Positions 3,010 to 28,649 of a DNA stretch of 60,489 bases are shown in pieces. How positions within the stretch are numbered: position 1 is the first letter of the stretch; every line of letters begins with the position of its first letter. The notes beneath the pieces were generated by a model. That model saw nothing but the letters and a program-made list of their open reading frames with translations, was not told where the DNA came from and made no database searches. The position numbers and the translations under genes are program-made. Source of the stretch: Bacteroidota bacterium (GTDB lineage Bacteria > Bacteroidota > Bacteroidia > Flavobacteriales_D > Sanyastnellaceae); assembly GCA_016868835.1 (NCBI GenBank), contig VGFR01000002.1:1-60489 (forward strand). Reading direction: 5' to 3'.

Positions 3010-5913
3010 ATGAATAGAAAACATCTTTTTCTCTTTCTGTCATTCAGTCTTGTTCAACTCATTTCGTGGTCTCAGAAAGCCATAGTAACCGGCGTTGTTC
3101 GTGACGCTCTCACGGGTGAATCTATTCCGGGGGCATTGCTGTATTGGCAAGATAAAAAAGCGGGGTTAGCTGTAAACACAGACGGCACCTTTTCAACCGA
3201 ATTAGCATTCGGTGAATACACTTTTGTTGCGAGTGCAATCAATTATGAAGAAAGTAAAAAAACGGTTAAAATCAATGGTAAAACACATCTTGAATTTGAC
3301 ATTATTCTTACATCACAAAAAGAAATTATTATTACAGCTGACATTGCTGTAGGTCGCAATGTACCTGTTGCAGTGTCTAACATTGGATTGAAAAGAATTG
3401 AAGAAGAGTTAGGAGGTAGAGAAATTGCAACACTAGCCAATACTACACCCGGCGCTTATGCTACACGAGCTGGAGGCGGAGATGGTGATGCACGAGTTAC
3501 TATAAGAGGTTTTAGCGGAAACAATCTTGCCGTAATGTTAGATGGTGTACCGGTAAACGATATGGAAAACGGGGCCGTTTATTGGAGCAATTGGTTTGGT
3601 CTTGATTTAGCCACGCAAACCACGCAAATTCAAAGAGGTTTGGGTGCATCTAAATTGGTTATACCTGCGGTTGGAGGTACTATGAATTTGATTACTCGTG
3701 GTATTGATTCGAAACAAAGTATTCGTATTAAACAAGAATACGCGTACGGTGCATTTTCAAGAAGTTCCTTCGCTCTGAATTCAGGAAAGACAAAAAAGGG
3801 ATGGGGATTCAGTTTAGCCGGTTCTTACAAAACAGGAAGCGGATGGGTAGACGGGACTTTCACCAACGGATTTTTCTATTACGGAAAGATTGAAAAAATC
3901 ATTGGCAAACATTATTTGAGTTTGTATGCATTAGGTGCTCCTCAGCAACACGGTCAACGTCTGCGTTCCGATGCTGTTGCTATGTATGATCAGGAAACCG
4001 CTCTGTCAGTTGGCGCTCCGCTTAACTACGACGCTGGAAGCGTTGGTGAAGTTTCAATATTCAATGGAGGAATAAATTACAATCCCGACTTGGGATTCTT
4101 GCAGCGCTATGATTTAATCAATGGTCAGCGTGTAAATGTGCAGGACAGGGAAGATTTCAACGGCCGAGTGAATTTCTATCATAAACCGCAGGTTTCTCTG
4201 AAAGATGTATGGAACATCAATGAAAAATCATTCTTATCTACCGTGGCCTATTTATCAATTGGTAAAGGTGGTGGCACTCGTTGGAACAGCAACCTAACGG
4301 CTAATGATTATTTAGCAGATGGTTCCGTGAATGTGCAATCCTTTTTTGACTCAAATGTTGGTAACAAAATTCCACTCTTTTCAGGACCAGATTACAACAT
4401 CAATTACCAAGTTGACTCTGTAGAACGCTATGCCGTTTCAAATTTTGTAAAAGCAAGTATGAATGAGCACTATTGGACGGGTATTCTGAGCACTTACAGC
4501 AATAAAATTAGCGAGAAACTGACAGTTTCTGGTGGAATTGATGCTCGTTATTACCGTGGTTTACATTACCGAAAAATCATTGATTTGATGGGTGCCGATT
4601 ATATGATAGCTAGGCAAAATTTCAATGCGAACGATCAGAATCTCATTAAGCGTGTTGGCGACACCATAGACTACAACAATGATGCATACATAGCTTGGGG
4701 CGGTTTATTTGGTCAAATTGAATATGATGGTGAAGACTTTTCATTTTTTGCAAGTATTTCAGGTGCCCAAACGGCATATAAACGCGTTGATTACTTCAAA
4801 CCTAAGGTCATTGAATACACAGACTCGAACGGCGATTTGCAACAAGTTCCCGTAGGGTATGTGCTACCTACGGTTGCTAATCCAATTGCATTGATTACAG
4901 ATTCTACAACTGTGAATACCATAGATGGCATGGCCACTTTTGGGAGCAATGCTCCGGGTGCGAAGTACCAAAGTACGGGCTGGTACAGTAGACCAACCTT
5001 TACATTAAAAACGGGTTTTCAATACAAAATAAACAAGAATTTCAGTGTCTTCCAGAATATTGGTTACCTTGACAAAGCCCCTCAATTCAGTCAAGTTTAC
5101 ACCAATGACAATGCCTTGTTTCAAAACATTCAAAACGAGAAAATCTTCAGTACCGAAATTGGATCTAGTTTTAAATCGAAAGAATTCACAGTTAACGTGA
5201 ATACCTATTGGACCATGTGGAAAAATAAGCCCTACCCATACGGTGTAAGTGTACCCAATCCACTTGACCCTTCAACCAACATAGCTGTGAATATTCAAGG
5301 TATGAATGCCAGACACATGGGTTTAGAATTTGAACTGGCATATAAAATAACAGATCAAATAACTCTGGAAGCGTTAGGCTCATTCGGAGATTGGATTTGG
5401 ACTTCAGGAGACACCGTACTCATTAATGATGATTTTAATAATCCCATTTACAATGTGCCGGGTGATCCAAGCAGCGGAAGATATCAATTGGTCTACGATG
5501 CTGCCGGGGTTCATGTCAGTGACGCAGCACAAACACAATTGGGTGGATTGATTCGATACGAGTGGAAAAATGGAGCCTATGTGAAAATGCGCTACATGTA
5601 TTTTGATAGATACTATGCTGCTATGAATCCGTTTCAATTGAATGGTGATAATGCCGCCCGTGAGTCTTGGCAAATTCCTTCTTATGGTTTGACCGAACTT
5701 CATGGTGGATATTCCTTCAAATTTGAAAAAGTGAAACTTGATCTTAGAGGAAGTGTCTTCAATGTGTTGAACAAGAAATACATTGCCGATGCCAACAACA
5801 ATGACCAAAATGCTTTGTACAACAACAAAGATTTTAATTTTGGTGCAAGTTCTGCCGGAGTATTCTTTGGACAAGGACGTTGGTTTAACTTATCTTTAAC
5901 CGCTACTTTTTAA
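3010..5913 (+). CDS. TonB-dependent receptor with carboxypeptidase-like regulatory domain
   Basis: 967 residues. Signal peptide (residues 1-21), then a CarboxypepD_reg-like beta-sandwich (AIVTGVVRDALTGESIPGA, about 24-105), a TonB plug domain (about 110-235, with VTIRGFSGNNLAVMLDGVP and GGTMNLITRG) and a long 22-strand-type outer-membrane barrel ending in LSLTATF with the usual terminal aromatic residue. Such receptors import ligands too large for porins, using TonB/ExbBD energy. No SusD homologue is next to it. Instead the gene 18 bases downstream encodes a secreted protein with two phospholipase-D motifs, so the two are probably co-transcribed and may handle the same nutrient. The ligand cannot be read from the sequence. 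Confidence 0.9.
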   Translation: MNRKHLFLFLSFSLVQLISWSQKAIVTGVVRDALTGESIPGALLYWQDKKAGLAVNTDGTFSTELAFGEYTFVASAINYEESKKTVKINGKTHLEFDIILTSQKEIIITADIAVGRNVPVAVSNIGLKRIEEELGGREIATLANTTPGAYATRAGGGDGDARVTIRGFSGNNLAVMLDGVPVNDMENGAVYWSNWFGLDLATQTTQIQRGLGASKLVIPAVGGTMNLITRGIDSKQSIRIKQEYAYGAFSRSSFALNSGKTKKGWGFSLAGSYKTGSGWVDGTFTNGFFYYGKIEKIIGKHYLSLYALGAPQQHGQRLRSDAVAMYDQETALSVGAPLNYDAGSVGEVSIFNGGINYNPDLGFLQRYDLINGQRVNVQDREDFNGRVNFYHKPQVSLKDVWNINEKSFLSTVAYLSIGKGGGTRWNSNLTANDYLADGSVNVQSFFDSNVGNKIPLFSGPDYNINYQVDSVERYAVSNFVKASMNEHYWTGILSTYSNKISEKLTVSGGIDARYYRGLHYRKIIDLMGADYMIARQNFNANDQNLIKRVGDTIDYNNDAYIAWGGLFGQIEYDGEDFSFFASISGAQTAYKRVDYFKPKVIEYTDSNGDLQQVPVGYVLPTVANPIALITDSTTVNTIDGMATFGSNAPGAKYQSTGWYSRPTFTLKTGFQYKINKNFSVFQNIGYLDKAPQFSQVYTNDNALFQNIQNEKIFSTEIGSSFKSKEFTVNVNTYWTMWKNKPYPYGVSVPNPLDPSTNIAVNIQGMNARHMGLEFELAYKITDQITLEALGSFGDWIWTSGDTVLINDDFNNPIYNVPGDPSSGRYQLVYDAAGVHVSDAAQTQLGGLIRYEWKNGAYVKMRYMYFDRYYAAMNPFQLNGDNAARESWQIPSYGLTELHGGYSFKFEKVKLDLRGSVFNVLNKKYIADANNNDQNALYNNKDFNFGASSAGVFFGQGRWFNLSLTATF

Positions 5914-15055: not shown

Positions 15056-16039
15056 TTAAATTTTCGAGAGTTCGTTCTTCAAAAAGATAATAGCTGGAAT
15101 AGCGGTTGCATCTTCATTGCGCAATTCAGCTAGGTCAATGCTTAACCAATCCCCAAAATGAATAAGGTAATACGCTCTTTCAAGTCTACTGCTTCCCTTA
15201 GCCCAAATTTCTTCGATTGTATCGCATTTCTCTGCCATTAATTTCTTACAAATTTCCATTCGGATTTGCGATCTTTTATGATCATCTTCGGCACGAATTA
15301 AAAGAACTGCTACTCTGTTATCACCGCCTGTCCATCCAACAAGTTCGTTGTGATTCATTTCAGGAAATATGTGATGCCAGCAAAGCATTTTAGAATTTTC
15401 ATTGATTTGTTGTCTCCAGCGAATAGCAACTCCCTCATAATTGGCTTCGCTATACAGAATTGGAATACGACTAACTATTTTTTCCGCTAAATTCCTGGTC
15501 GCTGAACGAAGAGCATCTTTTTCAGAATTTAATAACTCAATTGTATTTTTCAATTCTGACTCGAAATCACCCGAATAAATGCCATAAGCCTTCAAGGTAT
15601 ACAATACTTGAACTGAACTATAACCAAACATACTTCTAGGCGGATTACCTCCGGGGATGTGTATGCAATTGAAACCATCTTCTTTCGCAAATCCTGCTAT
15701 CTTTCCACCACTGGTAATGCAAGAAATGGTTGCACCTTTTTGTTTTGCTTCCTGATACGCCGCAACAGTTTCTTCGGTATCACCACTGTAACTTGAAATA
15801 ATAACCAAGCTATTACCTCCAACAAATGCCGGAAGCGCATAATCATTGGTACATACAATAGGTAAACAACATGAATCTGCAACAAGTTGAGATACGATTT
15901 TCCCACCAATTCCCGAGCCACCCAGGCCAGAAATCACTACATTCTCAAACTGACGATCTGTATTTTCAAATTGAGCAGCTTGCCCTATTGTTAATGCCTC
16001 TCCTAGATGTTGAGGAAATGCTTCTACCAATGCCTTCAT
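15056..16039 (-). CDS. Bifunctional phosphoglucose/phosphomannose isomerase (SIS domain)
   Basis: 327 residues from the ATG at 16039. It interconverts fructose-6-phosphate with glucose- or mannose-6-phosphate. An N-terminal SIS domain contains VVISGLGGSGIGGKIV and VVIISSYSGDTEET; the C-terminal SIS-like domain of this family contains WRQQINENSKMLCWHHIFPEMNHNELVGW and RAYYLIHFGDWLSIDLAEL, broken here by variable sequence. A TTG 15 bases upstream is in frame but sits inside the TATTTTTG promoter motif, so ATG 16039 is preferred. It may supply hexose phosphates to the polysaccharide genes upstream, but it has its own promoter. Confidence 0.88.
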   Translation of the reverse strand: MKALVEAFPQHLGEALTIGQAAQFENTDRQFENVVISGLGGSGIGGKIVSQLVADSCCLPIVCTNDYALPAFVGGNSLVIISSYSGDTEETVAAYQEAKQKGATISCITSGGKIAGFAKEDGFNCIHIPGGNPPRSMFGYSSVQVLYTLKAYGIYSGDFESELKNTIELLNSEKDALRSATRNLAEKIVSRIPILYSEANYEGVAIRWRQQINENSKMLCWHHIFPEMNHNELVGWTGGDNRVAVLLIRAEDDHKRSQIRMEICKKLMAEKCDTIEEIWAKGSSRLERAYYLIHFGDWLSIDLAELRNEDATAIPAIIFLKNELSKI

Positions 16040-16051
16040 ATTTTTTTTTTG

Positions 16052-16059
16052 CAAAAATA
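16052..16059 (-). promoter_or_regulatory. Putative -7 promoter element
   Basis: Minus-strand TATTTTTG, 12 bases upstream of the ATG at 16039, followed by an A-rich run in the leader. It lies downstream of the polysaccharide operon's last stop codon (16072). Confidence 0.45.
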
Positions 16060-16071
16060 GGTTGAAATAAA

Positions 16072-17355
16072 TTATACAATCTTAACTAAATGTTGTTCTT
16101 CGCATTTTTTGGCATGCAAAGCCATTTGGAATAACGAGACTCCTTTCTTTTCCGCTATCTCTAATAAATCATGCTCACCATCAGCCCAATTCAGAAAATG
16201 CATGAGTTCATGAATAACCTGACGTTCATCTGTATTAGGCATATTCGAAGAGGGGTACAATCCACGCTTTCCAAGTTGAGGTTCCCCGAAGGGTACAAGA
16301 TTCAGATAAGCCTGATTCAATTCTAAACCCAATACCATTTGATATAGTATTTCTACTGACTCCTCCATAGCGCTGAAAGATATGAAATCTTCATTATCGA
16401 GAGAAGTATGATATTCGGCATAACGCTGGTACGGCGTTCTCATGAATGACCCAATAGGCAGATTGTATCCCGGAGAACAGTACTGCCTCTCGTCGCTTCC
16501 TCCAACTGAGAATGGAAGTGTTGCATGCGGTACTTGAATTTGTGACAAAACATGCTTTGAAATTCTATCGGTCAGTGTGTTGCTCCTTCTACTTTCTTTA
16601 AAGTGTATTTTACCATTATCTCCGCAGCATGTGAGCACCCATCCCGCTTTGCATTTCAATTGCAACTGCTTTCCGAATTCAGACAAGAAAGCAATTACAC
16701 CAATTGTCTCAGGAGCCAAGACGAATCGATAACTGTATTTTCTTTTTGGCAAAGATGCAATTCGTTGATAAAGTGCGGCCATGACTAAGGGGCCACTGAG
16801 CTCATTGTTAGCCATGCTTGGGTGGCATAAATATGAAGAAAAAACAACTTCTTCATCGGTCTCTCCTTTCAATAGGTACTGACCGTATGTTAAGCTCCCT
16901 ATTTTCAAGTCTGAATCAATGAATACCCGATACATTCCCTCCTTTGGGCATTTCAACCATTCCTCATGACGCATACAAAATCCCCACTTCTCTTGATAGT
17001 ATGACGTTACGTAAGGTATTGCATTGGGTTGTTCAGGAAGTGTATATACATGACGAGCAAGTTCCTCATAAGTTATCTCTTGATCAATGGGCGAACTGTA
17101 ATTTAAAACATGCAAATTATGCTCATTCAATTGTGCGATCCGTTCACCGTTTGGAAGTTGGATATATGCATTGCGAATATTCCATTCTTTCGGTATTTCC
17201 CAATCATGTACTTTCGTTCCAGTTGGAACCTCTGTCAATTCCAGAGGAATAAGCTCATTTAAGATTTGAAACGAATGACGTAAACCGTCTCCAGTAATGC
17301 TTCTGCAAATGGGCCAAAGCCGATCGAAATAAGATTTAATCATGGTATTGCTCAT
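16072..17355 (-). CDS. Aminopeptidase-like protein of polysaccharide loci (DUF4910/DUF2172)
   Basis: 427 residues from ATG 17355 (MSNTMIKSYFDRLWPICRS). The family couples a DUF2172/M28-type zinc aminopeptidase fold to a C-terminal winged helix and recurs in O-antigen, capsule and flagellin-glycan loci; its substrate is unknown. Conserved segments: RSITGDGLRHS, VPTGTKVHDWEIPKEWN, SSYLCHPSMANNELSGP with likely metal ligands, VLAPETIGVIAFL, and FSVGGSDERQYCSPG. The C-terminal 80 residues (RQVIHELMHFLNWADGEHDLLEIAEKKG) form the helical domain. An ATG 48 bases upstream is in frame but lies inside the SDR coding end. With the chosen start the gap to the SDR stop is 7 bases. It is the last gene of the operon. 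Confidence 0.8.
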   Translation of the reverse strand: MSNTMIKSYFDRLWPICRSITGDGLRHSFQILNELIPLELTEVPTGTKVHDWEIPKEWNIRNAYIQLPNGERIAQLNEHNLHVLNYSSPIDQEITYEELARHVYTLPEQPNAIPYVTSYYQEKWGFCMRHEEWLKCPKEGMYRVFIDSDLKIGSLTYGQYLLKGETDEEVVFSSYLCHPSMANNELSGPLVMAALYQRIASLPKRKYSYRFVLAPETIGVIAFLSEFGKQLQLKCKAGWVLTCCGDNGKIHFKESRRSNTLTDRISKHVLSQIQVPHATLPFSVGGSDERQYCSPGYNLPIGSFMRTPYQRYAEYHTSLDNEDFISFSAMEESVEILYQMVLGLELNQAYLNLVPFGEPQLGKRGLYPSSNMPNTDERQVIHELMHFLNWADGEHDLLEIAEKKGVSLFQMALHAKKCEEQHLVKIV

Positions 17356-17362
17356 ATCCTTT

Positions 17363-18187
17363 TCACCAAACTGTCCATCCACCTTCAACAAGCATGTTGT
17401 CACCCGTTACATATGAAGAGGCGTCACTAAGTAAGTATACTAAAGCGCTGGCTACTTCATGGTTATAACTCAGTCTTTGCATGGGAGAAAACTGTGCGAA
17501 ATTCGATTCAAATTGCGCCTCATGATTGTTCCATACTCCATGGGGTGTAATCATATTCACCCGAACTTTTTTGGCGGCCCAATAGGAAGCAAGGTATCTT
17601 GACAATGCATCTATACCTCCTTTTGAAGCACTATAAGCAGCAGGACAACCAAGAGATGTACCCTTGTAAAGATTCTGGTTTGGAGCTACAACACTATATG
17701 TAGAGGGAATATTCACAATACTACCACCTCCATTCTCCGCTAAAGAACTACCTAGAACTTGACACATTAAAAAAGTGCCTTTTAAATTCACATCCATTAC
17801 CGTGTCCCAATTATCATCGGAAACAGATTCAAAAGGTTCAAAAACCAAATGCGATTTATTCTGATGTGCGTTCACAATTCCGTGAAGAGAATGAAATGTT
17901 TCAAAAACAAAGTCACGCAATGCGATGACTGATTTCCTTTCTGCTACATTCAATTCAAAGCCTTCACATTGAACATTGTTTCTTTCTGATAGTTGCTGCG
18001 CGAAAGCTTTGGGGTTTGCCTGTGCTATATCGGCTACAACAACCTTTCCCCCAAATTGAGCAACAGCTTCACAGAATGCTCGTCCTACTAAACCGCATGC
18101 ACCTGTAATTACAATTACTTTTCCGGTCAGTTCAAATTTCGCTCTGAAATTGATTTGAGTAGGATCTGTTGTACGAATAGGTTCCAT
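17363..18187 (-). CDS. Short-chain dehydrogenase/reductase, PtmA-like
   Basis: 274 residues. Classical SDR: NAD(P)-binding TGACGLVGRAF near residue 30, catalytic YSASKGG, and a C-terminal DASSYVTGDNMLVEGGWTVW. The sequence style and operon context resemble PtmA-type oxidoreductases of flagellin-glycan and nonulosonate loci. Inferred role: oxidation or reduction of a nucleotide-linked or free sugar intermediate. The start codon overlaps the aminotransferase stop by one base (TAATG). Confidence 0.82.
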   Translation of the reverse strand: MEPIRTTDPTQINFRAKFELTGKVIVITGACGLVGRAFCEAVAQFGGKVVVADIAQANPKAFAQQLSERNNVQCEGFELNVAERKSVIALRDFVFETFHSLHGIVNAHQNKSHLVFEPFESVSDDNWDTVMDVNLKGTFLMCQVLGSSLAENGGGSIVNIPSTYSVVAPNQNLYKGTSLGCPAAYSASKGGIDALSRYLASYWAAKKVRVNMITPHGVWNNHEAQFESNFAQFSPMQRLSYNHEVASALVYLLSDASSYVTGDNMLVEGGWTVW

Positions 18188-19527
18188 TAATTAAATTTTC
18201 GGAATACAGGTTTAATTTCTTCACCCACCAAATAGTTTTGGTAACCAGACTCGAGTGCACGTTCGAAAACGTGGCAACTCTCATCAAATGCGGCTAACAT
18301 AAAATCTATATCCGCCGTGGTATGTGAAAAAGAAGGCGACAAAATACCCTGGTATAGCACTCCACGTTCAATCATTTCTTGCATGAATAAGGTTCTGTAA
18401 AAGAAGTCAGGTTCCTTTTGTGCATTTTTAACAACCAAACCAACACACCAATTGAATCCAGTGATTTCAAAATATTCAGTTAAATTTCGTCTCGTCAGAA
18501 TTTCATGTACACCACGAATAAAATAATCACCAATGGCATGATTGTGTTGAATGACATTGTTCTTTTCATAAACGTCAATTGTGGCCATTGCAGCTGCAAT
18601 TCCATGCGTTTCGCCTCCGTGGGTTGTGCTTACCAAAAACACCTTTGGCTCTCCCCTCCTACGAATACCGCCATATTCCATTATTTCTTTTTTGCCTGTT
18701 AATGCACAAAATGAAAACCCGTTAGCAATTCCTTTCCCCCAGGTACAAAAATCAGGTTCTGCGTTGAATTTTTTTATTGACCCTGGGAAGTCCGATTTGA
18801 ATCCGGTTATCATTTCATCCATAATCCAAAGTGCACCGTGCTTGTGGGCGAGTGCAATGGCTTTTTGATAAAAATCAGGTTCCAGTACAATCCATTTTTC
18901 CGGTTCTGAAATAACACAGGCAATTTGATTCGGATATTCATTGAACATACGTTCCAAATCTTCTAAAGAATCCTGTTTATAGGTAACCGTAAACTGTTTT
19001 ATTTCATTTGGAATTCCGAAGTCACAACTTGTAGATCCTATAAACCAATCATCATAGCTGTAGAAAGGATGTTCTGCGGGTCTTGCTACAACGTGTCTTC
19101 CCGTGTACGCTCTTGATAATTTAACAGCCGCAGTAGTGACCACCGATCCATTTTTTGCAAATTTGATCATGTCATGTTGTGGTACCAAAGAGAGAAATTT
19201 CTCAGCCATCTCCATTTCTATGACACTGGGTCGGGTGAAATTCACACCTTTTTCTAATTGCGTTCTTACGGCTTCTAGAACCGGTTCATAGGCATGTCCA
19301 AGTGAAACACTATACAAGCCCATGAGGGTATCTAGATATTTATTTCCATCCAGGTCCCAACAATAAACACCTTTGGCATGTGTGATTGCTGCTGGTGATT
19401 TTGTTGGAAACTGGTCGTCTCCTTTCGAATAGGTATGTGCTCCTCCGGGTATGAGATTGTGAATTTTACTTCTGTATTCATCACTCTTCTTGAAGTTTGT
19501 GATTTTCGGTAAAGTAATGTTTTTCAT
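18187..19527 (-). CDS. Class III PLP aminotransferase (glutamate-1-semialdehyde aminomutase-like)
   Basis: 446 residues. Fold-type I, class III PLP enzyme: PGGAHTYSKGDDQFP near the N-terminus, LDTLMGLYSVSLGHAYEPV, PLP-contacting IMDEMITGF, and the Schiff-base lysine in FCTWGKGIANGF. It resembles HemL, but its place in a polysaccharide operon between an SpsF-like cytidylyltransferase and an SDR argues for amino-group transfer to a keto-sugar rather than tetrapyrrole synthesis. It overlaps the upstream gene by 4 bases (ATGA). Confidence 0.85.
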   Translation of the reverse strand: MKNITLPKITNFKKSDEYRSKIHNLIPGGAHTYSKGDDQFPTKSPAAITHAKGVYCWDLDGNKYLDTLMGLYSVSLGHAYEPVLEAVRTQLEKGVNFTRPSVIEMEMAEKFLSLVPQHDMIKFAKNGSVVTTAAVKLSRAYTGRHVVARPAEHPFYSYDDWFIGSTSCDFGIPNEIKQFTVTYKQDSLEDLERMFNEYPNQIACVISEPEKWIVLEPDFYQKAIALAHKHGALWIMDEMITGFKSDFPGSIKKFNAEPDFCTWGKGIANGFSFCALTGKKEIMEYGGIRRRGEPKVFLVSTTHGGETHGIAAAMATIDVYEKNNVIQHNHAIGDYFIRGVHEILTRRNLTEYFEITGFNWCVGLVVKNAQKEPDFFYRTLFMQEMIERGVLYQGILSPSFSHTTADIDFMLAAFDESCHVFERALESGYQNYLVGEEIKPVFRKFN

Positions 19528-20285
19528 TTTACAATTTTATCTTCTCGCAGGGACTTGGCATAGCCTGCATTAATTATACTTTCTTTATTTATGTCTAAAA
19601 TACTTGGTTCAGACTTTAACAAATCTACTACATGCTGAATTTGAAAAGAATTCGGATCCAATTTGGAAAATAACACCTCCACAAATTGAAAATCAGCCAG
19701 GGTATCTACAGACAACTTAAAATTGCATGAGTCATTCATTTTCCGAAATCCCAGCGTGAATTTTTTGGAGTTTTTCAAATATGGGATAACATGCTCCCGC
19801 TCACTCATCAATTTCGCTTCTAGAAAAGCCGTTTTCAATGCATGAAACTTAACTACTTCAACATCAAATCCGTCTTCTAAGAAAAATGGATCTTCGTTAC
19901 TATTAGAGAAAAGGTCAGTTCCGTAGAATTGAAACTGTTTGTATGCCCAATCTACAGTTGATCCGTGATGTGTTGCACAATCACTTGTCATTCGAATTAT
20001 AACATCATGTTCAGCAGCACCGTGTTCAACGGACGCATGATAAAATCGAGACAAAACATCCCAATCAGAACCACGAGAAAAGAGTATCTTATTTCGAGTA
20101 CAAAAATCTTCAATTGCATCATCTTCGGCATTCGTAGAGGTCACAACTACCAATTTATCAATACACTGAGCAGAGCGTAGTCGTTCTATAATCCACAATA
20201 GCATTGGCTTGCCGTGTAACTCTTTCAGAACCTTCCCTGGAAGTCGGGTTGACCCCATTCGAGCTTGTAATAGAGCAACATTCAT
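19524..20285 (-). CDS. SpsF-like cytidylyltransferase
   Basis: 253 residues. The N-terminal nucleotide-binding signature is ALLQARMGSTRLPGKVLKEL, typical of the CMP-sugar synthetase relatives called SpsF (spore-coat polysaccharide) and related to KdsB/NeuA. It probably activates an acidic or unusual sugar with CTP. The acidic metal-binding region reads VIIRMTSDCATHHGS; the Asp is present, while the xxGDxP motif of KdsB is replaced. The start overlaps the GNAT stop by 4 bases. Confidence 0.8.
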   Translation of the reverse strand: MNVALLQARMGSTRLPGKVLKELHGKPMLLWIIERLRSAQCIDKLVVVTSTNAEDDAIEDFCTRNKILFSRGSDWDVLSRFYHASVEHGAAEHDVIIRMTSDCATHHGSTVDWAYKQFQFYGTDLFSNSNEDPFFLEDGFDVEVVKFHALKTAFLEAKLMSEREHVIPYLKNSKKFTLGFRKMNDSCNFKLSVDTLADFQFVEVLFSKLDPNSFQIQHVVDLLKSEPSILDINKESIINAGYAKSLREDKIVK

Positions 20286-20821
20286 AGCATTTGATTTGGA
20301 TTAAACAATGCGTAATAGTATTTATTCCACAGTTTACCTTCTTTAAATACATGCTTTACGAAAGTTCCTTCAAGCACAAAATCAAGTGATTTATACAGGT
20401 GCTGAGCTGCAGGGTTATTTTCGAAGACGGCTAAAGAAATTTTTCGCAGATTCAGTTCATTGAAAACATATTGAATAATTAATTTCATTGCGGCTTTACC
20501 ATAACCTCTTCCCCTTGCCGATTCTTCTCCGATTATTATTCCCAATTCACAAGTACCCGCGATCCAATCAATGCGATCTATTTTCAAATTACCTACGTGT
20601 CTACCTTCAACATCGCACATGGCCAGAAAAATGGTATTGGCATCATTCAAAGTTCCCGCGACGTAGGCTTTAAGTTGTTCAATTGTGGTAGGAAAATACC
20701 CCGTTGCCATGCCTCTTGTAACTTCAGGATCATTGATCCATTTCAGATATAGGTCGTTGGCATCTTCCATTTGAAGCGGTCGCAGATGAATCAAGTCTCC
20801 TTTGAGAAAAATGGCTTTCAT
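20282..20821 (-). CDS. GNAT-family N-acetyltransferase (RimJ/RimL type)
   Basis: 179 residues. Opens with LIHLRPLQMEDANDLYLKWINDP and carries the acetyl-CoA loop GEESARGRGYGKAAMKLI, followed by LNLRKISLAVFENNPAAQHLYKSLDF. Located among sugar genes, it probably N-acetylates the amino group added by the class III aminotransferase, as PseH does in pseudaminate synthesis. That substrate is inference. Both neighbours overlap it by 4 bases. Confidence 0.85.
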   Translation of the reverse strand: MKAIFLKGDLIHLRPLQMEDANDLYLKWINDPEVTRGMATGYFPTTIEQLKAYVAGTLNDANTIFLAMCDVEGRHVGNLKIDRIDWIAGTCELGIIIGEESARGRGYGKAAMKLIIQYVFNELNLRKISLAVFENNPAAQHLYKSLDFVLEGTFVKHVFKEGKLWNKYYYALFNPNQML

Positions 20822-21462
20822 TCTCCGTGTTTGTTTTTAAGATGCAAAGCAAATTCTTGCATGCGTTCTGTATCCTTAGTTAAATTTGAATCGTGCATGC
20901 GGTATCTATATAAAGGAAGTGGAACATTGAATATGGCGTATCCACCCTTTTCCCATCGAATTCGAAGATCCTCCTCCTCTCTTGCACTGAATGATTCATC
21001 ATACAGTCCAATGTGGAATAAATAATCCTTTCGAAACATAATTCCACAAGCTATCGGGTTTGTTTCAGCTGACACATGTTCCATGTGTTTTCCCCTTTCA
21101 TCTACATGATAATAATCGACTGAAACTGCATCAATTCGAATATTCTCAGTTAAAAAAAGTCGCTGCGTACGTAACGTTTCAGAATGTATATAATCATCGG
21201 CATCTAGAAACATCACAAATTGTCCACGCGCCTTTTTAATTCCAAAATTGCGCGCTGCTGCTAAGCCAACATTTGAATCTAAATTAAATATTCTGCAAGA
21301 ATCCTCATAGTGCAGTAAAATCTCTGACGTAGCGTCTACTGAAGCATCATTTACAACAATGATTTCAAACTCAGATTTTGAGAGCGATTGCTCCAATGCG
21401 CTTCGAATGGCCCGTTCTACGAATTGGGCGTAATTATAGGTTGTAATTATAAGCGATACCAT
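20818..21462 (-). CDS. Family 2 glycosyltransferase
   Basis: 214 residues. GT-A fold with VSLIITTYNYAQFVERAI, the UDP-binding FEIIVVNDASVDATSEIL, and the metal-binding FVMFLDADDYI; the later ARNFG and EEEDLRIRWEKGGY segments are also typical. It transfers one sugar from a nucleotide donor to the growing repeat unit at the cytoplasmic side of the membrane. It is the only glycosyltransferase in the operon, so the rest of the repeat-unit machinery, and Wzx/Wzy, must be elsewhere. It lies 2 bases after the Wzc-like gene. Confidence 0.9.
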   Translation of the reverse strand: MVSLIITTYNYAQFVERAIRSALEQSLSKSEFEIIVVNDASVDATSEILLHYEDSCRIFNLDSNVGLAAARNFGIKKARGQFVMFLDADDYIHSETLRTQRLFLTENIRIDAVSVDYYHVDERGKHMEHVSAETNPIACGIMFRKDYLFHIGLYDESFSAREEEDLRIRWEKGGYAIFNVPLPLYRYRMHDSNLTKDTERMQEFALHLKNKHGE

Positions 21463-21464
21463 GG

Positions 21465-23873
21465 TTAATCATCGGATTTCTTTTTACGTTTCTTTGATTC
21501 CTCACCATAACTATAACCATAACTATAACCATATCCGTAACCGTACCCATATCCATAACCATATCCATATCGATACGCATATTTACCATAGTAATATCTC
21601 CACCGCTTTTGCTTGATATTATTTAGGAGTAGGCTTGTATTATTCAAATTATTTTGAGACAAAACATCCTCCAGATACTGAACACCTTGTTTGGTTGCCT
21701 TTTGCGTATTCATAACAAGAATTCCTCTATCAACCTTGGAAAGAAGAACAAGAGAGTCGGTAATCAGCAATATTGGCGGTGTATCCACAATTACAAAATC
21801 ATAATGCTTCAAGGCGTCTTGAAATAATTCAGACACCATGGAATTTAAAATTAATTCTGATGCATTAGGAGGAACAGGACCAGCGAAAATGACATCTAAA
21901 TTTTCAACTTGTGTTTGATACACCAAATCTTGGTAGTTCGATTTACCAATTAAATACGTAGTTACACCAACTGTATTGTGATGCTTGAACATCTTGTGCA
22001 CTTTCGGTTTGTGCAAGTCAAAATCGAGTAGAAGTACTTTTTTTGAAGCCTTGGCAATGGTTGCGGCTAGATTGGATGAAACAAATGTCTTTCCTTCCCC
22101 GGGATGAAGAGAAGAAACGAGTATAATTTTTGATTCATCATCGGGAAGTAAATATTGTAGGTTGGTTCGCAAGGTTCGAAACGCCTCGCTGACATTACTT
22201 CTCGGGTTTGCAGCTATAGCAATTGGATCTCTTTCAATTTCTTCATAATTCGGAATCCCGCTTATAACAGGTAATTTGGTCAACGATTTTAATTCTCTCA
22301 GGTGTTCTATATGTTCAAAGAACAGCATTCGAATTAACCCAATCAAAAGTGCAATAAAAATTCCAGCGCCTATCCATAGATAAATGATTGACTGTCTATC
22401 GGGACCAACAGCTCCCATGGCTCGAGCGGCTTCAATGATAGAAGTTTGAGGAATAATTGCAGCTCTAGCAATAATTGTATTCGCCTTTTTTTCCAACAAA
22501 AAAGTATAAAGTTCTTCATTCACCTTGAGCTTCCTTTCAATGCTCAACAGATCTCTTTCACTTTTTGGGATTCCGGCAAGCTTTCCCTCCAAATCTTTAA
22601 TTTGATTTCGAAGATCTTCTATCTGACTATCAATTGCAACGCGTGTATCTCTTGTATATCTGAAAATACTATTTCGAATTGTATTCAGGGTTGAGTCTAC
22701 ACGTTGAACACGTAAATCTCCGTATTTCACGTCAACTAATAGCGTGGCCCTCTTCTGCTTTAATGCAAATAAATCTTTCACCAATTCGGTCAAGGTAAGA
22801 TCTTCTTCTCGCAGATAGTTCATTGGTGGAATGACAGCCTTGTCGGGCTCGTTTTTCAAAAAGTTCTCCAGATTAAGAATTGATTCCCTTCTCAATTCAA
22901 GATCTCGAAGATCAATATCAGATTGAGTGAGCGCTTCGAACGCCGCATCCTGTTCCTTGTTTAAATCCAAAATATCTCTTGCATCCTTAAAGGATTCCAT
23001 AGCCATCTCCAGAGAGTCTATGATGGTTACTATTTCATCTATTTGCTTGTCTATGTATTTCTGCGTGTTTTCATTAACTGCAATTTCATTGTAGAGGGTG
23101 TAGTCAATGTAAACCTTCGCTAAGGTGTCCAAAAACATTTTAGCTCTTGAAGGAAGTTCATCGTTACAAGTCAAATTCAAGATACTTGTATACTCAACAT
23201 TTTCAGTGGTAAGAGCACCCTTGTACTTTTCAACAAGTTGTTTCAACGGTTTAACTTTGAACTGAAAATTTTGTTCAAGCACAGTGCCTAGTCTTGATTC
23301 ATCAACGTGTTCAGCTAAATCAATTTGCAGTTCGTAAGCGGGTTCTGATATCAGTTTTCCAAACTCGTAGGTTGCGACGTTTAATTTACCGTTTGCTTCG
23401 AAACTAAATTCATAACGTGACATATCCAAAACCTTGACATTGAATGGCACGTTATACATTTTGGGATCTAATTTCTGCCAATCACATTTCACATGAATGG
23501 CATCAAACTCATCTACTTGCAATGTTTTAACTCTACCAACTAAAAAATACGTGATAGAAAAATCTAGTTTTTCCAGTGATTTCTCTACTAAATCGTAACT
23601 CGCTATAATTCGTTTTTGGTTAGTCACATCTTGCATGAGTGATATGTAACCCAACTCGCTGTATACCTTTTTCTGATAATCATAGGTTTCAGAAGACTTC
23701 AAGAGTATTTCAGCCTTTGCCGCATAGATACTTGGCAGCCTGTGAGCGTAAAAGTAAGATGAGATAAATGCAATTAAAGCGCTAACAACAATAAGAAACC
23801 AGTTCTTACTTAAGAACCGCAAAATGGGTTTTAGATCATCTGCATCTAAGAAACTGGATTTAACTTCTGACAT
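21465..23873 (-). CDS. Wzc-like polysaccharide co-polymerase with BY-kinase domain
   Basis: 802 residues. Wzz-type N-terminal region with a membrane helix (about 24-45), a long coiled periplasmic part (about 60-480, including IDKQIDEIVTIIDSLEMAM), a second helix near 500, then a bacterial tyrosine kinase: Walker A LHPGEGKTFVSSN near 590, A' VLLLDFDLHKPKVH, and B FVIVDTPPILL. The C-terminus (about 755-802) is a Tyr cluster of roughly 16 tyrosines, mostly alternating YGYG with two YS units, ending EESKKRKKKSDD. Such tails are autophosphorylated in trans to control chain length and export. First gene of the polysaccharide operon. Confidence 0.93.
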   Translation of the reverse strand: MSEVKSSFLDADDLKPILRFLSKNWFLIVVSALIAFISSYFYAHRLPSIYAAKAEILLKSSETYDYQKKVYSELGYISLMQDVTNQKRIIASYDLVEKSLEKLDFSITYFLVGRVKTLQVDEFDAIHVKCDWQKLDPKMYNVPFNVKVLDMSRYEFSFEANGKLNVATYEFGKLISEPAYELQIDLAEHVDESRLGTVLEQNFQFKVKPLKQLVEKYKGALTTENVEYTSILNLTCNDELPSRAKMFLDTLAKVYIDYTLYNEIAVNENTQKYIDKQIDEIVTIIDSLEMAMESFKDARDILDLNKEQDAAFEALTQSDIDLRDLELRRESILNLENFLKNEPDKAVIPPMNYLREEDLTLTELVKDLFALKQKRATLLVDVKYGDLRVQRVDSTLNTIRNSIFRYTRDTRVAIDSQIEDLRNQIKDLEGKLAGIPKSERDLLSIERKLKVNEELYTFLLEKKANTIIARAAIIPQTSIIEAARAMGAVGPDRQSIIYLWIGAGIFIALLIGLIRMLFFEHIEHLRELKSLTKLPVISGIPNYEEIERDPIAIAANPRSNVSEAFRTLRTNLQYLLPDDESKIILVSSLHPGEGKTFVSSNLAATIAKASKKVLLLDFDLHKPKVHKMFKHHNTVGVTTYLIGKSNYQDLVYQTQVENLDVIFAGPVPPNASELILNSMVSELFQDALKHYDFVIVDTPPILLITDSLVLLSKVDRGILVMNTQKATKQGVQYLEDVLSQNNLNNTSLLLNNIKQKRWRYYYGKYAYRYGYGYGYGYGYGYGYSYGYSYGEESKKRKKKSDD
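21505..21571 (-). repeat. Hexamer tandem repeat coding the Tyr-Gly tail
   Basis: About eleven 6-base units of the type CCATAN/CCGTAN (plus strand) code alternating Tyr-Gly/Tyr-Ser at the end of the Wzc-like kinase. Units differ at third positions, and the unit is a multiple of three, so slippage would change tail length without a frameshift. Confidence 0.8.
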
Positions 23874-23957: not shown

Positions 23958-23965
23958 TATATTTG
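23958..23965 (+). promoter_or_regulatory. Putative -7 element, leaderless start of exosortase operon
   Basis: TATATTTG ends 4 bases before the ATG at 23970, so the operon's mRNA is probably leaderless. Confidence 0.5.
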
Positions 23966-23969
23966 CGCC

Positions 23970-24200
23970 ATGGCAAACAGAAGTTTGAAGTTCTTGATGG
24001 TAGTAGCTGCGTTATTTATCGCTGTTACAGCCTCAGCTCAAGTTCCGGATCCCCCGGGGGGTGGAGCCCCTCCTTGTGGCGAGCCTTTTGGAACAGTTTG
24101 TCCTATTGATGGTGGCGTTAGCTTCCTCATAGCTGCTGGTGTGGCTCTCGGTGGAAAAAAAGCCTACGAACTACGGAAAAAATCTTTGAAAAACAAGTGA
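23970..24200 (+). CDS. Small PID-CTERM-like exosortase substrate
   Basis: 76 residues in three parts: a signal peptide (1-24, ending TASAQ); a 20-residue Pro/Gly-rich middle with cysteines at 36 and 44; and a C-terminal sorting-like tail that starts PIDGG at 45-49, continues with a short hydrophobic stretch (VSFLIAAGVALGG) and ends basic (KKAYELRKKSLKNK). A short motif, a membrane helix and a basic end is the layout of PEP-CTERM/PID-CTERM signals cleaved by exosortases. If cut near PIDGG, the released product would be only about 20-25 residues. The stop overlaps the exosortase start by 4 bases (GTGA), so substrate and enzyme are translationally coupled. Assignment to PID-CTERM is from memory of the motif. 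Confidence 0.75.
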   Translation: MANRSLKFLMVVAALFIAVTASAQVPDPPGGGAPPCGEPFGTVCPIDGGVSFLIAAGVALGGKKAYELRKKSLKNK

Positions 24201-24736
24201 TTGTTCCTTTCAAGAATCCCGTTTTCAGATTTATTTTCATAGGTTTTGTGGCATACATTGCTTGGTATTTTTTGTACGAGCTTTACCTCTTACCCAAAAC
24301 TCCGATTGACGGATATCTTGTAGATTTTTTGGTGCGATGTGCAGAATTTCTGCTGCGCTTCATGGGATTTGAATTGAGTGTTTTCGATGATGGTCTTTTT
24401 CGAAATCACATTGCTATTGTTGGTACACCTGGAGTAACTGTTGGAGCGCCCTGTGATGGCATGATTCTCATGGCACTTTTCGCCATTTTCATTTTTGCAT
24501 ACCCCGGAGAAAATAAGCGTCGATTATGGTTTATTCCGTTTGGTCTAATAACCATACAATTGCTGAATGTTATACGAATAGCATCTTTGGCTTTAATTGT
24601 ATACTGGAATGAAGATTACCTATCCTTCAACCATGATTACACCTTTACCGTTATAGTGTACAGCTATGTCTTTTTGCTATGGTATTGGTGGTCTAAACAT
24701 TCAAACAAAACGCTTTCCCACCAGAACGAACACTGA
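24197..24736 (+). CDS. xrtF: XrtF-like exosortase
   Basis: 179 residues with a GTG start and about five membrane segments. Exosortases are membrane cysteine transpeptidase-like enzymes that process C-terminal sorting signals. The three expected active-site residues sit in conserved-looking settings: Cys86 in VGAPCDGM, Arg127 in LLNVIRIAS, His146 in SFNHDYTF. The length matches the short Bacteroidota XrtF group rather than the 280-500-residue EpsH type. It overlaps the sorting-peptide gene by 4 bases and the next gene by 1 base (TGATG). Confidence 0.85.
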   Translation: MIVPFKNPVFRFIFIGFVAYIAWYFLYELYLLPKTPIDGYLVDFLVRCAEFLLRFMGFELSVFDDGLFRNHIAIVGTPGVTVGAPCDGMILMALFAIFIFAYPGENKRRLWFIPFGLITIQLLNVIRIASLALIVYWNEDYLSFNHDYTFTVIVYSYVFLLWYWWSKHSNKTLSHQNEH

Positions 24737-25272
24737 TGATTAATTGGCGCAGGATTATACCGTTAATCATTGTCATTCTCTTCATTGGCTTTATCCAAGA
24801 AAGAGTGAAAGTTAGTGTGAACTTTATACTGGACAAATCTACAAATGTCCCAGAATTCTTTAATCTAACTCCTGAACAACGTATAGAGGTTTTATCCCCT
24901 TTGAAGAAGCAAGGAAGTTTCGATTATTATTACAGTCACGGAAATATTCAGACACTTTATTCCATGAGCCTGGTTCAACTGAAAGCATTGAAATGGTTGA
25001 TTACAGCTTTATCTGTCATAATTCACTTAGGAATAAATATTTTGATTTTACGTTTTTTTAATTCTCCAAAATCTCATTTTAAACTTCTCTACTACCTAAG
25101 CGCACTTATTTTCATAATTGCATTGTTCAGTCATTTGTTAGGAACTCTGTTGAATTTAAATAACGCGTTCTATCCAATAACGCGAGGATTAATGGGAATT
25201 TTGCAAACACCTGTATTAGGTATCATTTTTTTAATGGTCACCAATTTCTTTGCGAATGGAAAACATGAATAG
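24736..25272 (+). CDS. Exosortase-associated membrane protein (putative)
   Basis: 178 residues with an N-terminal helix (IIPLIIVILFIGFI), a loop of about 65 residues outside or in the periplasm, and three further helices (about 93-112, 120-140, 155-172). The position right after xrtF, with 1-base overlap, is where the 'exosortase F system-associated protein' is found in other Bacteroidota. I assign it to that role mainly by position and membrane layout. No catalytic motif is visible. It might anchor the substrate or help place the exosortase. Confidence 0.6.
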   Translation: MINWRRIIPLIIVILFIGFIQERVKVSVNFILDKSTNVPEFFNLTPEQRIEVLSPLKKQGSFDYYYSHGNIQTLYSMSLVQLKALKWLITALSVIIHLGINILILRFFNSPKSHFKLLYYLSALIFIIALFSHLLGTLLNLNNAFYPITRGLMGILQTPVLGIIFLMVTNFFANGKHE

Positions 25273-25741
25273 TCGAAATCAAGACGATAGAATCTGGATT
25301 TTTTGTAGTTCAACGGAGCTAAGTCAGGATACGCAAGAGCATCTTTTAAAATCTGTTTCTAATTTTTTAATGACTTGGAATAACCATGGCAACCAATTAT
25401 TCGGAAAATGTTGGATAGAATTGAACCAAATTCTAATTGTATCATTAGATGAGGAAAAAATGTTGGCAAGTGGCTGCAGTATAGACAAGTTAAATCGGAT
25501 GATCCAACAATTTAGTACTGAGCAAAACATTCATTTATTCGATAGACTAATTGTATTTTACAAGGAAAATGAAGCACTGAAAACAACACCATTGTCACAT
25601 TTTTGGGCCCTACGCAAGGCAAATATTGTCACTGACTTTACATACGTTTTAGACACAACCATCACAAATCTTGGTGAATGGAACACCTCTAAATGGAAGG
25701 AATTTCAGAATTCTTGGCACAAAAAAATGTTTGGTCGATAA
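25256..25741 (+). CDS. Small conserved Bacteroidota protein, often mislabelled 'ABC transporter ATPase'
   Basis: 161 residues from ATG 25256; ATG 25265 is equally possible, while the TTG at 25250 is unlikely. The sequence follows a common Bacteroidota family of about 160 residues (DDRIWIFCSS... FLMTWNNHGNQLFG... KMLASGCSIDKLNRMIQQF... NIHLFDRLIVFY). Databases often call these 'ABC transporter ATPase', but no Walker A, Walker B or signature motif is present, so no ATPase function is assigned. No signal peptide, so cytoplasmic. It overlaps the preceding membrane-protein gene by 17 bases and is the last gene of the exosortase operon. Confidence 0.75.
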   Translation: MENMNSRNQDDRIWIFCSSTELSQDTQEHLLKSVSNFLMTWNNHGNQLFGKCWIELNQILIVSLDEEKMLASGCSIDKLNRMIQQFSTEQNIHLFDRLIVFYKENEALKTTPLSHFWALRKANIVTDFTYVLDTTITNLGEWNTSKWKEFQNSWHKKMFGR

Positions 25742-25799
25742 TTAACGTAACCTTTTCTCATTTCAAATCGTAAGTAAATTGTATTTAACCTCTCCTTTT

Positions 25800-28649
25800 A
25801 TGAAATCCATTTTACTCCTTTTCATTTCAATTCTAACCTTCAACGGAATTTTTGCTTCTGACTTCAATACGGAAGTAGATGTATATGGATGCACCGACCC
25901 TCTTGCGTGCAATTATAATCCAACCGCAAACATTAGTGATGGTTCATGCTATTACGCTTCCTCAAATGATGCTTGTACCGGAGCTACTTCATTAAGCATT
26001 GGTTCAAGCGCTACCGTTGACAACACCTGTAGCACTTCAAATGGAAGCTCTCCCATTAACTGGTCAGACGGTGTGCAGAATGACGTTTGGTTTTCATTTG
26101 TTGCACCGCTTTCGGGTGGAGTAACAATTTCCACTTCTGGAATTTCGGGTGGTACTTTAAATGATTCTCAAATCGCTGTTTGGAGTGCATGCGGTTCTGG
26201 CTTTGTAGCTGGCGATGATGATAGTGGGGTTGGTGAGCACGCTAGTTTAACACTTACATGTACACATTTAATTGCAGGCTACACATATTTCATTCAAGTA
26301 GACGGCTTCGCGGGTGCACAAGGTACATGTCAAATTTCCTTGAGCGCCTCTTCGGTATCAGGTTGCACGAATGCGACTGCTGCAAACTATAATGCATGTG
26401 CAACAATAGACGACGGAAGTTGCACAAACCAAGGATGTACAAATTCAAGTGCTTGTAATTACAATGCGAATGCAACCATTGATAACGGAAGTTGTTGCTA
26501 CTCTACATGTGGCGAAATAGAAATCACAACAGGGCTTTACCCTTCGGAAATGAGCTATCAACTTGTGAACGGCGCAAACACTGTTCTTTTCTCAGGTACA
26601 GGGGCAAGTTCAGGGTCTGTATGCCTCTCAGCTGACTGTTATCAGTTTAGAATGGAAGACAGCTTTGGTGACGGATGGAACACGGCAGTTTACACACTTA
26701 CTGACCAATCAAATGCAATTATCATTCAAGGTACATTTCTGAACACCCCCATTTACAATGCCTTTAATGATACGGTCGGATTCTCAATCGGTGGTGGAGT
26801 TCTGGGTTGTACAGACAATACCGCGTGCAACTACAATGCATTGGCAACGTGTGACGATGCTTCTTGCGAGTATGCATCTTGTCGCGGCTGTATGAATGCC
26901 GCAGCCTGTAATTTCAATGCCACGGCTACAATTGACGATGGAAGCTGCTGCCTTGCAACATGTTTAACTTTTACCATGTTTGATAGCATGGGTGATACCT
27001 GGAATGGTGGAACGTACACACTAGTGGACCTCAATTCAACTGTGCTTTACACAGGTACAATGGATGAAAATGTGAGTTCACAAATTGTGAGTTTCTGTGT
27101 CCCAGACGGATGTTATTATCTACAAATAAATGGCGGTGATTTTCCAAGTGAAATAACTTGGAGCCTTGCTGGAACTAACACGGGTACTTTAACAGGAACA
27201 GGCAGCACAACCTCAACGGGCGTATCGGTTGGAACGAACAACGACTGCTTCGGTTGTACCATTGCAAGTGCATGCAACTACAACCCAAATGCCTTATTCC
27301 CGAATAACGCCATTTGTATTTTAGGTCCCTGCGTTGTTGGAGATAATCCATGGACTGCAATTAATACCTCACCATCCATTACCACCACTTGTACCAACTA
27401 CAATGGTACTTTTAACGGAGCTACAGTAACCACTGTAGCCAACTCAACCGTGGTTACAGGTGAGGATATCTGGTACAAATTCACAGCCACTCATCCGGCA
27501 ATTAGCATTCAAGTAACGGCAACCTCAACAAACGGAGTCATCGAACTATTAGATAACACCTATCAAACCATAGACACCGAAAATTTAACTGGAACAGGAG
27601 CCGTAGAAAGATTAAATATTGGAGGACTTAACATTGGTCAAACCTATTACATCGGTGTAAGAAATTACGACAGTTCAATTGGTGCTGGAAACTTCAGTAT
27701 TTGTCTGAGATACTTAAGATACACTGTTCCTATTTCCGGTACAGGACCATTCTCTCTCTGCAATCAATACAAAGCATCTTACAGAGGAACAGGCGTTTCT
27801 TATCGATTCGAATTTACCCAAACCGCTAGTCCAAATTCAACCTTTACCCGTACTCAGGCCAGCGATATCCTTATTCTTGGCAACTGTCTCGGCTTGTCTT
27901 TTAGCCGCAGTTACAATGTTAAGATATACGCCCTTTATACCATGCAAGATGGATTGGGTAATAACGAAATTATTGAATCTGCTCCCCCTACATTCAATTC
28001 CATGAACACCGGAACACAACCAAGTTCAGAACTGAAATCAACAGATCGTTGTGCAAGTGGTCCACGACTTCGATATGCCAATGTAACCACACTGCCATGG
28101 ATCTGTGGAAGTACAGCTTGGCAATGGGAATTCACAAAGATTAATCCTTCCACGGGTCTTCCAATTGCATCTCCAATCACGCATATGGTAAATACAAATT
28201 CAAATATTCTTGGATTGGGTTTTGTTTCGGCTCTTGAATTCGGGGCTACCTATTCAGTGCGCACGAGACCCTATTTCTTAACTGAAGCGGGAACCTATGG
28301 AAACGCTCAAACCTTGTGTATTGTAACAAGTGCAATGATTCTTCAAGATGAAAATAAAGAGCAACAACTGGTGCAGCGGAATGAAGTCATTGAATATGAT
28401 CAGCTTCACTTGTCAGCCTATCCGAATCCGTCAACAGGTATTTTCGTTCTCCAAATGCCTGAGACGCAATCTAAAGTCTTTTACCAAATTACCGACATGA
28501 CAGGTAAAATCGTAGAAACAGGATTGATACCTATGGGCACCACTCGCATGGATTTGAATCTATCTCATCTCGGAACTGGAATATACCAACTCCATACAAG
28601 AGACCCGAAAGACAATCAAGAACGCCTGAAGCTCGTAATATCAAATTAA
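25800..28649 (+). CDS. Secreted multidomain protein with six Cys-rich repeats, PPC-like domains and T9SS type A domain
   Basis: 949 residues from ATG 25800; the TTG 21 bases upstream is rejected because the signal peptide (MKSILLLFISILTFNGIFAS) begins at the ATG. Cys-rich units of the form GCTDxxACNYNxxAxxDDGSC start at residues 30, 188, 212, 336, 363 and 485. Between them lie beta-sandwich segments: two PPC-like domains (about 65-185, with NDVWFSFVAPLSG, and about 505-645, with EDIWYKFTATHP) and two related segments containing FRMEDSFGDGWNTAVYTLTD and FTMFDSMGDTWNGGTYTLVD. The end (LSAYPNPSTGIF onward, about 875-949) is a T9SS type A domain. No enzymatic motif is seen; a surface scaffold or adhesin is likely. 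Confidence 0.78.
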   Translation: MKSILLLFISILTFNGIFASDFNTEVDVYGCTDPLACNYNPTANISDGSCYYASSNDACTGATSLSIGSSATVDNTCSTSNGSSPINWSDGVQNDVWFSFVAPLSGGVTISTSGISGGTLNDSQIAVWSACGSGFVAGDDDSGVGEHASLTLTCTHLIAGYTYFIQVDGFAGAQGTCQISLSASSVSGCTNATAANYNACATIDDGSCTNQGCTNSSACNYNANATIDNGSCCYSTCGEIEITTGLYPSEMSYQLVNGANTVLFSGTGASSGSVCLSADCYQFRMEDSFGDGWNTAVYTLTDQSNAIIIQGTFLNTPIYNAFNDTVGFSIGGGVLGCTDNTACNYNALATCDDASCEYASCRGCMNAAACNFNATATIDDGSCCLATCLTFTMFDSMGDTWNGGTYTLVDLNSTVLYTGTMDENVSSQIVSFCVPDGCYYLQINGGDFPSEITWSLAGTNTGTLTGTGSTTSTGVSVGTNNDCFGCTIASACNYNPNALFPNNAICILGPCVVGDNPWTAINTSPSITTTCTNYNGTFNGATVTTVANSTVVTGEDIWYKFTATHPAISIQVTATSTNGVIELLDNTYQTIDTENLTGTGAVERLNIGGLNIGQTYYIGVRNYDSSIGAGNFSICLRYLRYTVPISGTGPFSLCNQYKASYRGTGVSYRFEFTQTASPNSTFTRTQASDILILGNCLGLSFSRSYNVKIYALYTMQDGLGNNEIIESAPPTFNSMNTGTQPSSELKSTDRCASGPRLRYANVTTLPWICGSTAWQWEFTKINPSTGLPIASPITHMVNTNSNILGLGFVSALEFGATYSVRTRPYFLTEAGTYGNAQTLCIVTSAMILQDENKEQQLVQRNEVIEYDQLHLSAYPNPSTGIFVLQMPETQSKVFYQITDMTGKIVETGLIPMGTTRMDLNLSHLGTGIYQLHTRDPKDNQERLKLVISN
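25887..27320 (+). repeat. Six dispersed Cys-rich coding repeats
   Basis: In-frame units start at 25887, 26361, 26433, 26805, 26886 and 27252. Consensus GCTNxxACNYNxxATxDDGSC; the last copy is the most diverged (FPNNAICILGPC). They are interleaved with beta-sandwich domains rather than forming one tandem block. Confidence 0.8.

Follow-up and report, generated by a model that had tools for sequence, protein, structure and literature searches.

In a lake bacterium of the Flavobacteriales, four overlapping genes at positions 23970-25741 of the window, i.e. the 60,489-nucleotide stretch of DNA that was analysed, encode a 76-amino acid (aa) precursor, an exosortase of the XrtX type and two further proteins. 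As assessed by profile matches and gene order, this locus is a genuine and fairly typical XrtX/PID-CTERM system. The core parts of such systems are already modelled in NCBIfam, the kind being named but uncharacterised; the interest lies in a pattern that extends across the class, namely substrates of peptide size that are often paired with giant secreted proteins. Our literature searches found neither an experimental nor a descriptive account of XrtX/PID-CTERM, no paper naming PID-CTERM, and none describing its link to giant proteins.

The precursor has the layout MANRSLKFLMVVAALFIAVTASA, QVPDPPGGGAPPCGEPFGTVC and PIDGG-helix-KKAYELRKKSLKNK. It consists of a signal peptide (residues 1-23, the cut being set by eye before Gln24) followed by a spacer of 21 residues rich in Pro, Gly and Cys (residues 24-44, positions 24039-24101), which includes Cys36 and Cys44. 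The PID_CTERM model matches residues 45-66 of the 76 (E=2.6e-9), i.e. at the C-terminal position. The TGA of this gene and the GTG start codon of the exosortase gene share nucleotides (GTGA, 24197-24200), and the stop of the exosortase gene in turn overlaps the following ATG at 24736. A preliminary description of this DNA had taken the locus for an exosortase system whose substrate is the size of a peptide. The NF046080 and NF046081 scores, both above their cut-offs and far from what chance would give, agree with that. The four overlapping genes, their coordinates and their motifs were all borne out on re-reading. Cys86, Arg127 and His146, which had been picked out in the enzyme, are indeed present, and they are invariant in 108/108 homologues together with Asn124, Leu131 and Trp162. 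On the other hand, the enzyme had been called XrtF-like, and this has to be revised to XrtX, since the XrtF model (TIGR04128) requires 90 bits and gives 76.1. No XrtF match was found in the source genome at E<=1e-25. Identity with the PEP-CTERM/EpsH exosortases was also rejected, with a TIGR02602 score of 18.3 bits, far under the cut-off of 105.6.

Table 1. Features of the XrtX/PID-CTERM locus and its surroundings in the window
Feature	Positions	Strand	Match or basis
Sugar/polysaccharide genes after wzc	15059..21462	-	Pfam
Wzc-type tyrosine autokinase and chain-length protein, Tyr/Gly-rich tail, divergent from operon	21465..23873	-	TIGR01007, 176.8 bits, cut-off 108
PID-CTERM precursor, 76 aa	23970..24200	+	NF046080 PID_CTERM, 36.7 bits, cut-off 26
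PIDGG motif, ahead of helix and basic tail	24102-24116	+	
Exosortase X (XrtX), 179 aa, GTG start	24197..24736	+	NF046081, 175.2 bits, cut-off 170, E=1e-51
XrtX Cys86	24452-24454	+	
XrtX Arg127	24575-24577	+	
XrtX His146	24632-24634	+	
XrtX-associated membrane protein, diverged, 178 aa	24736..25272	+	NF046082, E=1.5e-6, 28.0 bits, below cut-off 75
Small cytoplasmic protein, 158 aa from ATG 25265 or 163 aa from TTG 25250	25265..25741	+	ORF
Large secreted protein, six GCTxxxACNYN-type Cys-rich repeats, T9SS type A C-terminal domain	25800..28649	+	TIGR04183, 40.2 bits, cut-off 23

The source genome is a 2.07-Mb draft of 216 contigs, 95.8% complete. A profile search of the whole genome detected one PID-CTERM gene and one XrtX, which rules out the presence of many PID-CTERM genes and upholds the one-substrate, one-enzyme count. 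Neither of the two findings that the preliminary description had named as fatal to it was made: there is an exosortase HMM match, and the genome has a single PID-CTERM gene. The PIDGG pattern matches the DNA at one more place (C62, L002), which was discarded, as the ORFs listed there contain no PIDGG-helix-basic protein. In a survey of 199 genomes of the order, XrtX was found in 105 and PID-CTERM in 84, the latter almost always as a single copy, and 83 of the 84 PID-positive genomes contain both. The remaining PID-positive genome has only a sub-cut-off match, within a 1434-aa frame. We examined 78 XrtX loci in detail, i.e. the window and 77 others. The peptide gene lies directly upstream of XrtX in most of them, and the succession of peptide, XrtX and third gene is found repeatedly throughout the order. 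Considering this co-occurrence, the near-constant single copy and the recurrent gene order, the dedicated layout is a rule of the family; the one-to-one arrangement, previously thought unusual, is therefore the norm for PID-CTERM/XrtX. The term "dedicated systems" was defined by Haft and Varghese in 2011 for a sorting enzyme with a single adjacent target (PMC3237569). Alongside Flavobacteriales MAGs, two lake MAG records titled "Chryseobacterium gleum" (L322 and L324) contain the locus with 64-69% identity, and these species names look wrong.

The genes on both sides of the peptide and its enzyme are conserved to different extents. A Wzc-type kinase is encoded within about 6 kb of XrtX in 61 of the 78 loci, mostly directly divergent. 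In the window, the genes after wzc encode GT2, GNAT, CMP-sugar cytidylyltransferase-like, class III aminotransferase, SDR, DUF4910 and SIS proteins, and several of these sugar genes are syntenic in relatives. Downstream of XrtX, an iterated profile detects a homologue of the XrtX-associated protein in 75/78 loci. The third gene of the window scores below the NF046082 cut-off and is thus best regarded, on this homology and its position, as a related protein at the equivalent position and not as a member of the curated family. Its product yields a confident predicted model (pLDDT 93.4), the single-sequence model being poor, and the fold has no match to a solved structure at E<=0.001. The fourth gene, which starts within the third, encodes a protein with no match in Pfam or NCBIfam. 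Since its homologues, present in 36/78 loci, all belong to the window's own family, it is a lineage-specific neighbour. Hence, the membrane protein and small cytoplasmic protein genes stand as originally outlined with regard to overlaps and order, but the fourth gene is probably not part of the core. The operon as first delimited ends before a fifth gene on the same strand, encoding a protein of the type IX secretion system (T9SS) kind (25779-28649, after a 37-nt gap), which is, judging from the family loci compared below, part of the conserved neighbourhood.

PID-CTERM precursors are short throughout the order and the class, their median length being 73 aa (range 46-128, n=140). Where a signal-peptide cut could be recognised (n=112), the median spacer from there to PID is 21 residues long, so the earlier proposal that the cleaved product is a peptide holds and can be extended to the whole class. 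In their common form, these peptides consist of Gln, a Pro/Gly-rich stretch, C-x(3-9)-C and PID, e.g. CWPPPCIPIDGG. Such a Cys pair is found by PID in 62/66 order-level peptides, one Cys being at most 3 residues from the motif and the other 4-10 residues before that Cys. At class level, 42 of 74 PID peptides have the same tail and no Cys at all. An exosortase adjoins 27/32 of the Cys-bearing peptides versus 7/42 of the Cys-less ones (p=5e-9, uncorrected for relatedness). There is usually one peptide per genome, and up to five in the genomes sampled, several of them adjoining a giant protein. Some genera in the window's family have a larger, Cys-rich peptide; in three genomes of one genus of this family (L141, L142 and L143), the larger Cys-rich substrate is unlinked, XrtX being encoded on another contig. 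A PID-CTERM match of 995 aa (L203) was considered as a natural fusion of giant and peptide and rejected, as it is a large integral membrane protein with a C-terminal sorting tail of its own; it cross-matches the PID_CTERM model (about 3133-3204, minus strand) and presumably resembles MSEP-CTERM proteins.

At class level, the gene directly upstream of the peptide and on the same strand often encodes a giant protein with a T9SS tail. This is the case for 39/74 PID genes, distributed over 18 of 24 families, and not for the other 35. Only 8/369 other genes of the same loci have a giant upstream (odds ratio 50, p=1.7e-27), values that are indicative because the profile was trained on such giants and the controls come from the same small loci. 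This profile, built from 25 giant tails, gave 64 matches in 1205 tails, 49 of which are directly upstream of a PID gene. Independently of it, the NCBIfam type A tail (TIGR04183) was found above cut-off in 8/9 giants tested. The longer loci display a common plan, i.e. opposite-strand kinase, giant (925-1729 aa), peptide, XrtX and associated protein (L224, L225, L227-L229, L235, L239 and L243). Elsewhere, giant and peptide are found with no adjoining exosortase (e.g. L226, L230, L231, L236-L238, L240 and L241). Forty-two PID genes lack an exosortase within 3 kb, and 25 of them have a giant directly upstream, which shows that the giant accompanies the peptide even where the enzyme does not. For unlinked peptides, the exosortase is expected elsewhere in the same genome, and it was found there in 21 of 22 genomes, which had been selected mainly on account of such peptides; the exception (G459) is split into 250 contigs.

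The giants share a C-terminal module of ~500 residues and have variable N termini, e.g. SprB repeats and PKD in L225. As a PID-specific marker this module had to be dismissed, since it is widespread, occurring in 68/119 class genomes, some of which are without PID-CTERM. Their tails are unusual. YPNP, with which type A tails usually begin, is found in 0/25 giants beside Cys peptides versus 13/15 tails that are not PID-adjacent, and it is absent in 35/49 PID-adjacent giants overall. In addition, Cys in the peptide is associated with Cys in the penultimate region of the giant (15/23 versus 6/24, p=0.008), an association in which related lineages are counted repeatedly, and we therefore do not rely on a disulfide between the two.

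The link to a giant also exists in the family to which the window belongs, but is looser there. No giant is found between kinase and peptide in this family. In 20/36 of its loci, one of which is the window, the fourth gene is followed on the same strand by a gene for a large, secreted protein that is rich in Cys and has GCTxxxACNYN repeats. The gene of the window (ORF from TTG 25779, likely start ATG 25800) is homologous to the Cys-rich giants of the other loci and its product is a candidate giant partner. The closest relatives (L064 and L065, of the window's genus) lack the downstream giant. Several counterparts in the family, namely those read to their ends, finish with a dockerin-like stretch, whereas the giant of the window has a T9SS tail. 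The source genome has a high density of T9SS-type proteins, with 81 Por_Secre_tail matches at E<=0.01 in 2.07 Mb; with so many tails, adjacency in the window proves nothing by itself, and the evidence is the conservation over 20 loci. One giant with the full module is also encoded in this genome, unlinked (C1:22421-23866, L259), its tail match beginning late (position 8).

In the proposed mechanism and ALTERNATIVES, the signal peptide would export the precursor and the C-terminal helix would hold it in the inner membrane. XrtX would then use its Cys-Arg-His residues to cut at the PID motif and, assisted by the XrtX-associated membrane protein, probably transfer the new C terminus to an acceptor, either a lipid or a glycan. 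What is left after cleavage would be a Pro/Gly-rich peptide of ~21 residues with two Cys. Such a peptide would be no cargo protein, and might act instead as a surface-attachment partner in trans for a giant secreted, mostly T9SS, protein, which with its T9SS tail has no room for an exosortase tail of its own. That XrtX processes the peptide is well supported, the cleavage itself being likely from what is known of the family and from the invariant residues. Sequence comparison establishes the family membership, the invariance of the catalytic residues, the size of the peptides across the class and a pairing with giants that is not random. Judged from gene order, the neighbourhood of peptide and giant is a functional linkage, which says nothing of physical contact. 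We infer from it that the peptide may help to attach an associated glycan, or the giant itself, to the surface of the cell; the acceptor, the contact with the giant and the surface location are putative parts of this scheme. As a whole, the explanation of the peptide as a trans attachment partner is put forward tentatively, with a chance that we place slightly short of even.

Two points favour attachment: where the enzyme is encoded elsewhere, the peptide keeps the giant as its neighbour and not a polysaccharide gene, and there is a precedent in SprB, a T9SS type B adhesin that is anchored by SprF, the product of the adjacent gene sprF (PMC9143113). Lipid anchoring at the new C terminus occurs in archaeosortase A substrates (PMC7157517). 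It counts against attachment that 35 of the 74 class-level PID genes lack a giant directly upstream, that L064 and L065 lack the downstream giant and the giant of the window ends differently from its counterparts, that the module of the giants is also found in genomes without PID peptides, and that the Wzc linkage fits a role in polysaccharide too. Moreover, T9SS type A cargo has a known anchor, PorU/A-LPS, so that a second one for the giants is not strictly needed. The peptide had earlier been suggested to be a carrier, a signal or a glycan stub, and the linked giant secreted protein now points to a role in attachment. A more general version, in which exosortase X and its relatives are not protein sorters in the ordinary sense but mature micro-peptides that serve as trans anchors for giant T9SS proteins, joining the exosortase and T9SS routes via a mini-gene, with giants bearing a specialised type A tail without YPNP, is possible but somewhat unlikely.

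The main rival, owing to the kinase, the sugar genes and the biofilm defect of xrtF mutants in F. johnsoniae (PMC10936215), is that XrtX joins the peptide to the polysaccharide of the Wzc/sugar cluster, or that the peptide is its acceptor or terminal cap, the giant being a co-regulated matrix component. The frequent proximity of a Wzc-type kinase to XrtX is consistent with this, as are the position of the kinase past the giant gene in the loci with the common plan, the sugar-nucleotide genes that come after wzc, and the general location of exosortases in exopolysaccharide loci (PMC1569441). However, where peptides are away from the exosortase, a Wzc homologue is nearly always missing from the 6-kb locus and a giant is often present, which suggests that the companion of the peptide is the giant rather than a polysaccharide gene. 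We consider a glycan-linked peptide unlikely, if well worth keeping in mind. A miniature lipoprotein, in which the Cys before PID would be lipidated and XrtX would then trim the tail as has been proposed for MYXO-CTERM and myxosortase, might account for the Cys pair beside PID in order-level peptides; in MYXO-CTERM, cleavage depends on the invariant Cys, whose lipidation is presumed (PMC11980579). This is improbable, since it could apply to the Cys-bearing forms only, the many Cys-less peptides at class level having the same tail, and since XrtX is unrelated to the CPBP-type myxosortase.

The size of the peptide, its translational coupling to the enzyme and the divergent promoter region common to the operon and wzc would all suit a signal or regulator, either as a cut peptide that is secreted or as an uncut one that reports XrtX/Wzc activity. 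Yet the spacer is low-complexity Pro/Gly, neither a sensor kinase nor a receptor was noticed at the loci examined, and genomes may have up to five peptides, several beside a giant protein, which makes such a function very improbable.

If the attachment reading is true, two C-terminal routes that are exclusive on one C terminus, exosortase and T9SS, would be joined through a separate mini-gene. The strong statistical link between peptide and giant could then reveal how very large adhesins are fixed to cells, and genes of 60-80 codons beside T9SS adhesins, which are easy to miss in annotation, may be functional partners. As for exosortase substrates in Bacteroidota, XrtX supplies a ready list, with one to few tiny candidates per genome.

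Among known systems, the closest is that modelled by NCBIfam as NF046081, NF046080 and NF046082, whose three core genes have the same order as in the window, two of them scoring over their cut-offs and the third under. The related exosortase XrtF of Flavobacterium (TIGR04128; Fjoh_1448/1449) also has an overlapping gene for a small membrane protein. In F. johnsoniae, xrtF and its associated gene are required for surface colonisation and biofilm, and the substrates of XrtF were still to be found in that study (PMC10936215). Unlike XrtX of the window, XrtF has no recognisable substrate gene adjoining it in the best-scoring XrtF loci read, and no peptide either; among the giants found in seven XrtF genomes only one is closely trailed by a credible peptide. 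One XrtF-bearing genome (G297) encodes an unlinked, sub-cut-off PID-like mini-protein, QGGPPPPGLPDEGSDLPIDGH-helix-KRRK (L296:1381-1590, plus strand), which is a candidate XrtF substrate. Another (G359) encodes a diverged mini-protein with signal peptide, helix and basic tail 25 nt after a giant T9SS protein (L295:1498-1725, minus strand, and L299), in which the pairing of giant and peptide is seen again, but a clear PID motif is absent.

PEP-CTERM/EpsH systems (XrtA type) share with the window a signal peptide, a motif-helix-basic tail and a polysaccharide neighbourhood, but they have many larger substrates per genome, compared with one peptide here. MYXO-CTERM proteins resemble the window peptide in having a Cys next to the motif, a helix and a basic tail, whereas myxosortase is an unrelated protease with dozens of substrates per genome. 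Finally, SprB and SprF have in common with the system of the window a giant secreted protein and a dedicated partner encoded next door. SprF is an outer-membrane barrel, whereas the neighbour in the PID system is an exosortase-type peptide, and SprB is type B cargo, whereas the giants paired with PID peptides carry tails that match the type A model, in 8/9 of those tested.
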